Below, one piece after another: positions 45,947-49,975 of a stretch of 64,000 nt of DNA. Within the stretch, counting starts at the first letter, position 1. Each line of letters begins with the position of its first letter. Both the position numbers and the translations under genes were made by a program. This stretch comes from Betaproteobacteria bacterium. Lineage in GTDB: Bacteria; Bdellovibrionota_B; Oligoflexia; Silvanigrellales; Silvanigrellaceae. The stretch lies in contig VGHE01000004.1 of the NCBI GenBank assembly GCA_016868315.1, positions 1 to 64,000 of the forward strand. Reading direction: 5' to 3'. Under the pieces are notes generated by a model. That model saw only the letters and a list, made by a program, of their open reading frames with translations, was not told where the DNA came from and ran no database searches.

Positions 45947-46465
45947 CTACGCAAACGGAAGCAGACGCACGTCGGTGAACTCAGGTCGCTGAGCCAAGAT
46001 CTCAGCGCTTGGGCAACCCGATGCAGCCCGCAGAGGTTCGGGAAGGTTGATGGGGCGCGCATCTCTAAGATCAACGGCCACGAGCCGCAGCTGTGCAAAG
46101 AAACAAGCGCGGCCTGCTGTAGTAAAAAAGTCCTGTTCGACGGTGAGATTATCTTGCGCCGGCGGCTCGACGACGATCTTCTGAAAAACCTTGAGACTGC
46201 TTTTTCTCAGGGCGACCAAACGTGTCAAAACAAAGACTCTCTGTCCAAACACAAGTGGCCGCAGATATTTTGAATTCAACTCTGCCACCACAAATGCAAC
46301 GCCATCTTTCAGACACTGTTCGAATGGAACGCCAATTTCACGCATAGCCTGACATCGTGCACGCTCCAAATATCTGAGATAGTTGGGGTGGTGAACGACA
46401 CCTCCCCCATCGATGTCCTCAAACTGGACGTCTACGGCGAACTGGGATGTGAAGTTCCAACGCAT
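45947..46465 (-). CDS. Acyl-CoA thioesterase, YbgC/4HBT family
   Basis: Hot-dog-fold thioesterase hydrolysing acyl-CoA esters. The N-terminal active-site region VQFEDIDGGGVVHHPNYLRYLERAR matches the YbgC pattern (D-x-D-x-x-G-V-V-x-H-x-N-Y-L), read here as DIDGGGVVHHPNYL. 172 residues; the last 30 or so are an extension. YbgC usually sits with tol-pal, which is not the case here. Divergent from the cysteine-cluster gene, with start codons about 20 bases apart. Confidence 0.88.
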   Translation of the reverse strand: MRWNFTSQFAVDVQFEDIDGGGVVHHPNYLRYLERARCQAMREIGVPFEQCLKDGVAFVVAELNSKYLRPLVFGQRVFVLTRLVALRKSSLKVFQKIVVEPPAQDNLTVEQDFFTTAGRACFFAQLRLVAVDLRDARPINLPEPLRAASGCPSAEILAQRPEFTDVRLLPFA

Positions 46466-46487
46466 GAGTGGTTCCTTGTTCGGGGCA

Positions 46488-47276
46488 ATGACAATGAATT
46501 TTGTAAAGGCATTGGAGTGCTTACTACCAGTCGTCGACGCCGTCCATGCGCGCTGGGTGACCGACCGTGATGCGATGCACGCAAATCACAGCGCACATCC
46601 TGAAGCACCGCGCGTCACCTGCACAAAAGGTTGCGGCGCCTGCTGCCATTTCCCCGTGATCCCGGCAACCGCCGGGGAGGCATTTATTGTCCTGGCGCGA
46701 TTGCTTGCCGAGGGCGAGAGTCTCGAAAACCTGCGGAGCAAATTCATACCCTATGCAAGCCGATATCTTGAGCACGCGCGCCGCAACGGATCATTACCAC
46801 TCACCGACGAGCAACAACGCCTTTTCCTGAGCGAAAAGCTCCCTTGCCCCCTGTTCGTTTCGACACCTGAAGCTGGTCCTCTCGGTGGGCACTGCGGCAT
46901 TTTTAATGCGAGACCTTTCATTTGCGATTTCTATCATAGCCTTGAATCGCCTGAGCTTTGTCTGCTCAAAAGACCGCACGCGTCCTACTCCGACATCACG
47001 GAGCGCGGACATGAGGCGCTCGATACCCTCCGCCACGAGGAACGCCGCATTTTCGGCAGAAGCACGCTGGGGCATCTGCCTTTGCTCCTTGCCGCGCTGC
47101 TCACGGAGGATGGCATGAACACCTTTCTCACCGTCGTTAAGCCCTCTGCAGAAGAGGAAAATATTCAAGATATTGAGGATTTCGGTCTCTACATGGAGCT
47201 CATTGGCTGCCTCGGTTACCGCTGGGGTGAAGGAGAATGGGACTCGCTTGCCAAAGCGCAGTCTGAAGTGCTTTAG
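46488..47276 (+). CDS. YkgJ-family cysteine-cluster protein
   Basis: Putative zinc- or iron-binding protein of the UPF0153/YkgJ family. The cysteine pattern CTKGCGACCHFPV, then LPCPLF, CGIFNARPFICDFYH and a later single Cys fits the family (CxxxCxxCC...C...C). About 262 residues from ATG 46488; ATG 46494 is equally likely. The open frame extends upstream past the divergent ybgC start and is not used. Biochemical role unknown; often proposed as a metal-cluster protein. Confidence 0.83.
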   Translation: MTMNFVKALECLLPVVDAVHARWVTDRDAMHANHSAHPEAPRVTCTKGCGACCHFPVIPATAGEAFIVLARLLAEGESLENLRSKFIPYASRYLEHARRNGSLPLTDEQQRLFLSEKLPCPLFVSTPEAGPLGGHCGIFNARPFICDFYHSLESPELCLLKRPHASYSDITERGHEALDTLRHEERRIFGRSTLGHLPLLLAALLTEDGMNTFLTVVKPSAEEENIQDIEDFGLYMELIGCLGYRWGEGEWDSLAKAQSEVL

Positions 47277-47311: not shown

Positions 47312-48319
47312 ATGGGTCATAAACAGACGGTCACACTGATTCCCGGCGACGGAATTGGACCTGAAATCAGCGCAGCGGTCACGAAAATACTTGCAGCTAG
47401 CGGCGCTGAAATCGATTGGGATACACATGAAGGTGGTGAGGCAAGCGCGCTGGCTGGCAAGGGCGTAATGCCCGATGCGACTATCCAGTCAATAGCAACA
47501 AACAAGATCTCGCTCAAAGGACCAACGACGACTCCCACAGGCGGGGGGCACCAGAGTGCGAACGTGACGCTGCGAAAGCGGCTTGACCTCTATGCAAACG
47601 TGCGCCCAGCGAAGAGTCTTCCTGGCTACAAAACACGTTTCGACAATATCGATATGATTATCGTTCGCGAGAACACGGAAGACACATACGCAGGTGTGGA
47701 ACACATGGTTGCACCCAACGTGGCACAGTGCCTGAAAGTCATTACCTGGGAGGGCAGCGAGCGCGTCGCGAAGTGCGCTTTTGAGATGGCTCGTAAGCTC
47801 AAAAGAAAACGGGTGACGTGTGTGCACAAAGCCAACATCCATAAGCTCAGCGACGGGCTGTTCCTCAAGGCGCATGAACATGTCGCAAAGGAATTTCCAG
47901 ATCTGACCTTCGATAGCATCATTGTGGATAACCTGTGTATGCAGCTTGTCACACGCCCAGAAGAATTCGATGTCTTGGTTTTGCCCAATTTGTATGGAGA
48001 TATCGTTTCCGACTTGTGCGCTGGTCTTGTTGGCGGACTTGGTGTTGCTCCGGGAGCGAACATCGGTTCAACGGGCGCTGTGTTTGAGGCCGTTCACGGT
48101 TCTGCACCCGACATTGCGGGAAAAGGTCTGGCGAATCCCACAGCACTTCTTTTGTCTGCAGTGATGATGTTACAGCACATGGGCGAACTCCAGAAAGCTG
48201 AGCGGATTGAAAAGGCCCTGCATGCTGTTCTTGCTGAAGGAAAACATCTGACCCGCGATCTCAAGGGAGCAGCAAGTACGATGCAATTCGCCGACGCAAT
48301 CATCGCAAAAATGAACTGA
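47312..48319 (+). CDS. Isocitrate dehydrogenase, NAD-type catalytic domain
   Basis: Oxidative decarboxylation of isocitrate to 2-oxoglutarate. From ATG 47312 (AAGGAG eight bases upstream) 335 residues. It has LIPGDGIGPEIS, the substrate segment QSANVTLRKRLDLYANVRP (NVTLRKRLDLYANVRP), RENTEDTYAGVEH and a conserved Asp-rich metal site. The cofactor loop reads HGSAPDIAGK: Asp-Ile at the positions that are Lys-Tyr in NADP enzymes, indicating NAD use. The protein stops where Thermus/Rickettsia-type enzymes continue into an extra C-terminal domain. That domain is encoded by the next gene, 19 bases on. Confidence 0.92.
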   Translation: MGHKQTVTLIPGDGIGPEISAAVTKILAASGAEIDWDTHEGGEASALAGKGVMPDATIQSIATNKISLKGPTTTPTGGGHQSANVTLRKRLDLYANVRPAKSLPGYKTRFDNIDMIIVRENTEDTYAGVEHMVAPNVAQCLKVITWEGSERVAKCAFEMARKLKRKRVTCVHKANIHKLSDGLFLKAHEHVAKEFPDLTFDSIIVDNLCMQLVTRPEEFDVLVLPNLYGDIVSDLCAGLVGGLGVAPGANIGSTGAVFEAVHGSAPDIAGKGLANPTALLLSAVMMLQHMGELQKAERIEKALHAVLAEGKHLTRDLKGAASTMQFADAIIAKMN

Positions 48320-48338
48320 ACACAGAAGGAGTGAGACA

Positions 48339-48665
48339 ATGAGCTCAACCACAGACAATCGTCTTCTGGCTGGAATTGATATTTTCGTTGAAGCACCTTT
48401 CAGCGTTCAACTTCCGAAACAAATTGGAACAATGAAACTGGAACACATCGCAAGTCGTGGCACCAAACTGAAGGGCAGTGAACTCGAGAAAAGAATACTC
48501 GATGTCCATTGGCTCTGCGCACGCTACGTCTTTGAAGGCCAGCGCCCCCTCAACACTGAGACGGAAGCAAATATCCTTCAGGTTATCCAGAGCATCGGCA
48601 GTCAATACAAATGGTCAAGCGTGATCAAGCTCTATACGCTTGACGGTAAACCACAGTATTCCTGA
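48339..48665 (+). CDS. Stand-alone isocitrate dehydrogenase C-terminal-domain protein
   Basis: 108 residues beginning at ATG 48339, with AAGGAG about seven bases upstream. The sequence GIDIFVEAPF, then MKLEHIASRGTKLKG, a Trp/Cys/Arg region (DVHWLCARYVFEG) and WSSVIKLYTLDGKPQYS follows the layout of the C-terminal region fused to isocitrate dehydrogenase in Thermus/Rickettsia-type enzymes. Here it is a separate gene after a complete stop codon (TGA at 48317) and its own ribosome site. It is not a simple frameshift, since the upstream frame is closed and a new start is well formed. Role inferred: subunit or regulator of the preceding enzyme. Confidence 0.75.
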   Translation: MSSTTDNRLLAGIDIFVEAPFSVQLPKQIGTMKLEHIASRGTKLKGSELEKRILDVHWLCARYVFEGQRPLNTETEANILQVIQSIGSQYKWSSVIKLYTLDGKPQYS

Positions 48666-48677
48666 GCATAAGCTCCG

Positions 48678-48732
48678 AAACAGAAACAGGCTCACGGTCA
48701 TGATGAACACGACCGTGAGCCTGTTTCTGTTT
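48678..48732. terminator. Bidirectional terminator between the two isocitrate dehydrogenases
   Basis: A perfect 22-bp stem (48678-48699 with 48711-48732) with an 11-base loop, flanked by T-rich stem ends on both strands. It lies 12 bases after the plus-strand domain gene and 10 bases after the minus-strand icd stop, and would end transcription in both directions. Confidence 0.9.
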
Positions 48733-48742
48733 GCGGTTTCAA

Positions 48743-49975
48743 TTACATGTGTGCGCAGATCGCTTTGGCAAACTCGCTGCACTTGACTTCTTTGGCTCCT
48801 GCAAGCTGACGAGCAAAATCGTAGGTCACGACTTTGTCTTGAAGAGTCGCCTCAAATGCCTTTTCGATCAGAGTACAGACTTCCTTCCAGCCCATGTACT
48901 CAAACATCATAACACCGCTGAGGATAACACTTCCGGGATTTACTTTGTCTTGGCCTGCATACTTTGGTGCTGTCCCGTGTGTTGCTTCAAAGACCGCGAA
49001 GCCGTCGCCGATATTTGCACCCGGGGCAATACCCAAACCACCCACCTGAGCAGCAAGAGCATCGGAGAGGTAATCACCGTTGAGATTGGTTGTGGCCAAA
49101 ACATCGTATTCATCCGGACGAAGCAACGCCTGCTGGAACATGTTGTCAGCAATGGCATCCTTGATCAGAATTTTTCCGGGTGGCACCTGGCCCTGGCACT
49201 CGTCCCAGGTAACGCAGAAGTCACGGAACTCTTCCTTTGCCACTGCATAGCCCCAATCACGGAAGGCACCTTCGGTGAATTTCATGATGTTGCCCTTGTG
49301 CACGAGAGTCACGCTCTTGCGTTTGTTCTCAATCGCATACTGGATAGCTGCGCGCACAAGACGCTTCGAACCAAATTCACTGACAGGCTTAATTCCCAAT
49401 CCGGAATCTTCACGGACAGTTTTGTTGAAAGCCGTTTTCAAGAAATCTCTGAGCTTGAGTGCTTCTGGAGTTCCAGATTTGAATTCGATTCCGGCGTAAA
49501 TGTCTTCCGTGTTTTCGCGAAAGATAACCATGTTGACTTTGTTGGGTTCACGCACAGGAGCAGGCACATTCGGATACCATTTGACCGGGCGCACGCATTG
49601 ATAAAGATCGAGTGTCTGGCGCAGAGTTACATTAAGGCTGCGAATGCCTCCACCGACAGGCGTGGTCAGGGGTCCTTTTATTGAAACCCGAAAATCGCGC
49701 AGAGCATCGACGGTCTCCTGGGGCAACCAGTCGTTGTATTTCTGGAACGAGGCCTCGCCTGCGGGAACCTCCATCCAATGCACCTTGCGCTTGCCACCAT
49801 AAGCCTTTGCCACTGCAGCATCGAAGACCATTTGGCTTGCAGCCCAGATATCAGGACCAGTGCCGTCGCCACGGATGAAGGGAATGATTGGCTCAGAGGG
49901 GACGGTCAGCTGTCCTTTGCTGTCCGCAGTGATTTTCTGACCCTGTGTGGGAACGCTAATCAACTTATAGGTCAT
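48743..49975 (-). CDS. icd: Isocitrate dehydrogenase, NADP-type
   Basis: Citric-acid-cycle enzyme of the E. coli type. From ATG 49975 (GGAAGGGG upstream) 410 residues. It shows [15 protein letters not shown], the substrate loop [20 protein letters not shown] (the regulatory Ser in IRSLNV), [10 protein letters not shown] and [13 protein letters not shown]. The cofactor loop [16 protein letters not shown] has the Lys-Tyr pair of NADP enzymes. It is convergent with a second, NAD-type enzyme, so the cell can make either reduced cofactor at this step. Its first 11 bases overlap the end of the pseudouridine synthase gene. Confidence 0.95.

Follow-up and report, generated by a model that had tools for sequence, protein, structure and literature searches.

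Organisation of the locus

The DNA analysed here, a stretch of 64,000 nucleotides referred to as the window, carries a NAD-type isocitrate dehydrogenase (IDH) gene closely followed by a small gene, with a second IDH gene facing them from the opposite strand. The NAD-IDH gene (47312..48319, forward strand) has a good ribosome-binding site, GGAAGGAG, upstream, ends in the stop codon TGA and encodes a catalytic protein of 335 residues with the Iso_dh fold (PF00180, E 6.6e-105). It is separated by a 19-base spacer (48320..48338, forward strand), which contains the Shine-Dalgarno sequence AGAAGGAG, from the small gene (48339..48665, forward strand), whose 108 codons lie in a different frame from those of the enzyme gene. 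The sequence thus bears out an earlier note on this DNA, which had described two separate open reading frames 19 bases apart, the second with its own AAGGAG site.

The same note had claimed that the NAD enzyme coexists with an NADP-type IDH. This enzyme is encoded by the convergent icd gene on the reverse strand (48743..49975, 410 residues), which scores 659.8 bits against TIGR00183 (cut-off 567.3). Between the convergent genes lies a long hairpin (48676..48735) with a near-perfect stem of more than 20 pairs. RNA folding of positions 48666-48750 gave -46.4 kcal/mol (z -9.7), and the hairpin is likely a two-way transcription terminator for the NAD-IDH operon and icd. A promoter and terminator scan found nothing and missed the hairpin because its loop length is beyond the limits of the scan. 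About 35 bases upstream of the NAD-IDH gene, both in the window and in its nearest relative, an open reading frame (46413-47276 in the window) whose weak match to CxxCxxCC (PF03692) falls just short of the cut-off is probably co-transcribed with the NAD-IDH gene.

The catalytic chain is an NAD-type enzyme

Several features mark the 335-residue protein as an NAD-type enzyme. It scores 438.4 bits against the mitochondrial NAD-IDH family TIGR00175, over the NCBIfam equivalog cut-off of 432.4, contains the NAD motif HGSAPDIAGK (DI), and can be aligned over its full length with human IDH3A (5gre_A). By alignment, the family's active-site residues S82, N84, R88, R98, R119, Y126, K173, D206, D230 and D234 are all kept. 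The closest solved relatives of the chain are the IDH3 enzymes (TIGR00175, subfamily III), with which it has the NAD motif in common. The window genome (95% complete) holds only two Iso_dh genes, the NAD-IDH and the TIGR00183 NADP-IDH; hence a paralogous regulatory subunit, as found in the eukaryotic, mitochondrial members of TIGR00175, is absent from its Iso_dh genes. Also absent from this gene family in the 95% complete assembly is leuB, which suggests that the bacterium may be auxotrophic for leucine.

The small protein is a detached IDH C-terminal domain

The 108-residue protein matches PF18324 (Isocitrate_DH_C_bact) with 35.7 bits, over the Pfam cut-off of 25 (E 9.9e-9), across profile positions 3-105 of 110. 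This family is the C-terminal domain of the Thermus/Rickettsia-type ("subfamily IV") IDHs. On its own, the small protein aligns weakly with residues 386-489 of the Thermus IDH (2d1c; E 0.0024), whereas a profile built from nine free-standing proteins of this family, described below, aligns with residues 389-490 at E 4.5e-17. An AlphaFold2 model of the single domain, made from an input of only two sequences, was poor (pLDDT 41). From the profile matches, the small protein is a homologue of the C-terminal domain, or "second clasp", of subfamily IV IDHs, detached from the enzyme, in agreement with the earlier reading of it as an IDH C-terminal domain.

The family PF18324 is described as a domain of IDH, but here a member makes up a whole protein. 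Subfamily IV IDHs are single chains of 480-500 residues with a C-terminal extension of about 100 residues (PMC3521221). The window pair departs from this architecture by its separate open reading frames, stop codon, spacer and change of frame. With the Thermus enzyme (TtIDH, 2d1c) and the Rickettsia type (TIGR02924, PRK09222) it has a homologous catalytic part, placed in one clade with theirs, and the C-terminal domain in common; it differs from these single chains in having two genes for two chains, a first-helix region shorter by about 7 residues and no AQGQ-type tail.

The split is conserved in close relatives

The gene pair is kept in four species of two genera, a group of Silvanigrella-like bacteria: the window genome (G000), G001 and G002 belong to one genus, and G003 to another genus of the same family. 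In all four, each gene has its own stop and start codons, while the spacer measures 19, 21, 14 and 31 bases and the frame offset of the small gene is 1, 0, 2 and 1, respectively (G000 to G003). Between the window and its nearest relative, G001, the small genes differ at 15, 10 and 65 sites in codon positions 1, 2 and 3. The varied spacers and frames, together with this strong third-position bias, show that the small gene codes for a conserved protein and that the split is no sequencing error. The protein evolves faster than its partner, with an identity to G001 of 78%, compared with 92% for the NAD-IDH. The earlier note would have given up its reading had the domain match been missing, or had close relatives carried one fused chain; the match is present, and the relatives are split as well, without a fused chain.

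Ten other members of the family were searched (G004-G013), and these contain neither a close NAD-IDH of the window type nor a PF18324 match. A second PF18324 match in G001 (L008, 6.6e-4) runs out of frame across another gene and was dismissed as chance.

Free-standing domains in other lineages

The earlier note had proposed looking for the same split in other genomes. We surveyed 383 genomes with PF18324 and a further, overlapping set of 385 around G167; a survey of 141 genomes in the phylum of G061 used a profile of the free domains. Since these genomes are an uneven sample, the counts are not frequencies. Among them, fused chains are commoner than split ones. The surveys yielded free PF18324 proteins in five more genomes from two other lineages, namely G167 and the f17 genomes G508, G561, G464 and G537. 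In G167, the stop of an NAD-type IDH gene overlaps by 4 bases the start of a gene for a 111-residue PF18324 protein. In the four f17 genomes, the small gene precedes an unfused KY-type IDH gene by 9-25 bases. The gene order is therefore reversed between these lineages, the small gene following the enzyme gene in that of G167 and preceding it in f17. All nine free proteins pass the PF18324 cut-off, those of the window clade as weak matches, and every free domain found, in all three lineages, adjoins a catalytic IDH gene of the same clade. The G167 cluster (L056/L070) contains both architectures, as a fused RR-type IDH comes no more than about 120 bases after the split NAD-type pair.

The open reading frames beside about 60 other NAD-type IDHs that were fetched held no further free domain, and searches of plasmids and viral contigs with the small protein gave no match. 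Two apparent candidates were discarded: a G552:C2 match with a frame of 367 residues is a fused chain ended by the contig edge, and in G417 the domain is interrupted by the contig end. In G349 (L052, 358-1839) and G552 (L169, 1499-2602), fused subfamily IV-like chains have a degenerate HGSAP motif (HGPQTELAG in G552) and are possibly catalytically altered or regulatory paralogues; each of these genomes also has a normal fused copy.

In two genomes with related f17 enzymes, G061 and G210, the catalytic subunit is kept but no free domain adjoins it, which indicates that the domain is dispensable there. At the place expected for the small subunit, the catalytic gene is followed in both (L111 in G210, L115 in G061) by an unrelated open reading frame of about 160 residues, which by eye looks SRPBCC/AHSA1-type. 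Unfused bacterial NAD-IDHs of the window's own class (G015, G026, G034:C68, G045) are likewise enzymes of about 335 residues, but have a PP2C-like phosphatase or other genes after them instead of an adjoining small gene, and they branch elsewhere in the tree.

Free and fused domains compared

Across the 38 free and fused domains that were compared, six residues (G12, D14, R40, G41, R62 and L98) never vary. The two forms differ in the distance between the GxD and RG motifs, which is exactly 25 residues in nine of nine free proteins and 30-38 in the fused ones, with the exception of G147 (28). According to the alignment, the short spacing leaves out much of the helix that follows the first strand. 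The window clade domains are also without two motifs that typify fused chains, DHWRCRF and AQGQ. In a tree of the domain alone, the window clade sits on a long branch, and the alignment is too short to separate free from fused domains.

The catalytic tree unites every split and every fused enzyme, together with the two unfused f17 enzymes, in a single clade (support 96/96), from which the unfused NAD-IDHs of the window's class are separate. AU tests rejected none of the alternative placements. Because one of these alternatives joined the window enzyme to its unfused class members (p 0.19), the membership of the window enzyme in the subfamily IV clade is well supported but not proved. Several fused subfamily IV chains bear the NAD motif DI, and free domains also adjoin KY (NADP-type) enzymes, so the earlier statement that the fused enzymes are mostly NADP-type holds only in part.

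Discussion

A free domain that always lies beside the enzyme gene in unrelated bacteria looks like a real second subunit, and the conserved gene neighbourhood is best read as a sign that the domain acts as a free subunit. In the Thermus enzyme, the clasp of the dimer is overlain by a larger clasp-like domain (C2) that the C-terminal region builds (PMC3521221). We think it probable that the small protein is a separate, non-covalent subunit of the NAD-IDH. In this model, the catalytic dimer would bind two copies of the free domain to give an alpha2-beta2 complex, in which the domain would take the place of the Thermus second clasp over the dimer clasp. There it may stabilise or activate the dimer; alternatively, the cell may set IDH activity via the amount or the binding of the small subunit. 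A role in balancing the NAD- and NADP-linked enzymes is speculation. A hetero-oligomeric nature is possibly something that the window enzyme and IDH3 have in common, but the beta and gamma partners of IDH3 are paralogues with the catalytic fold, whereas the window partner is an unrelated domain of 108 residues.

The domain could instead be a free regulator acting in trans, for example a metabolite sensor, that binds the NAD-IDH conditionally, or binds the convergent NADP-IDH or some other protein. Such a role would sit well with the strong divergence of the window clade domain from the fused form, with its faster evolution relative to the enzyme, and with the convergent arrangement of the NAD- and NADP-type genes in G000-G002. 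However, in G003 the NADP-type gene lies almost 6 kb off and the small gene still adjoins the NAD-IDH, the NADP-type enzyme is of a different subfamily (TIGR00183), the residues that are invariant in the fused domain persist, and the gene always accompanies a catalytic partner in three lineages. We therefore regard a free regulator as unlikely.

Still less credible is a relic, left when a fused gene broke and persisting with little function. Fused chains are the commoner form in the sampled genomes, the window clade domains match Pfam weakly and two relatives do without the domain (G061, G210), all of which speaks for a relic. Yet the codon pattern is that of purifying selection over a saturated synonymous distance, the small gene has its own ribosome-binding site, and the arrangement recurs in three lineages, in one of them with reversed gene order and in all with the same 25-residue spacing. 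As for the idea that a programmed frameshift, or an error in sequencing or assembly, masks one fused chain, nothing speaks for it beyond the closeness of the two genes, and the comparison of four species, with their varied spacer lengths and frame offsets, refutes it to the point where we give it practically no credence.

The separate subunit that we favour poses the question whether the two-gene or the fused form came first. Two-gene ancestry is favoured by the three split lineages, which do not fall in the main group of fused enzymes, and by the short domain form common to the free proteins. Moreover, simply breaking a fused gene in two cannot yield the opposite gene order in f17. Against two-gene ancestry counts that the best catalytic tree groups the fused chains together, though with weak support (57/54). 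The trees allow a two-gene ancestor without proving it, and do not exclude a fused one followed by one fission and one rearrangement. It is thus a tentative idea, and one we would rather bet against, that the two-gene form was the original state of subfamily IV, that the Thermus and Rickettsia enzymes arose by later fusion, and that the window operon still preserves the state before fusion, its small protein being a dedicated regulatory subunit of bacterial NAD-IDH that had not been described before.

Kumar et al. 2014, as cited in PMC4360740, reportedly regard the C-terminal region as a novel terminal domain. The literature covered, which included few subscription journals, contained no description of PF18324, of a Silvanigrella IDH or of a free-standing IDH domain, which is weak evidence of novelty.

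Taken together, several bacterial lineages appear to possess a separate small subunit for an enzyme of central metabolism that has been under study for decades. As the domain occurs here as a separate natural protein that can be added, removed and titrated in vitro, the question of what it does becomes directly testable. The window pair is also a concrete example of a TCA-cycle enzyme whose domains were either fused or split in evolution.
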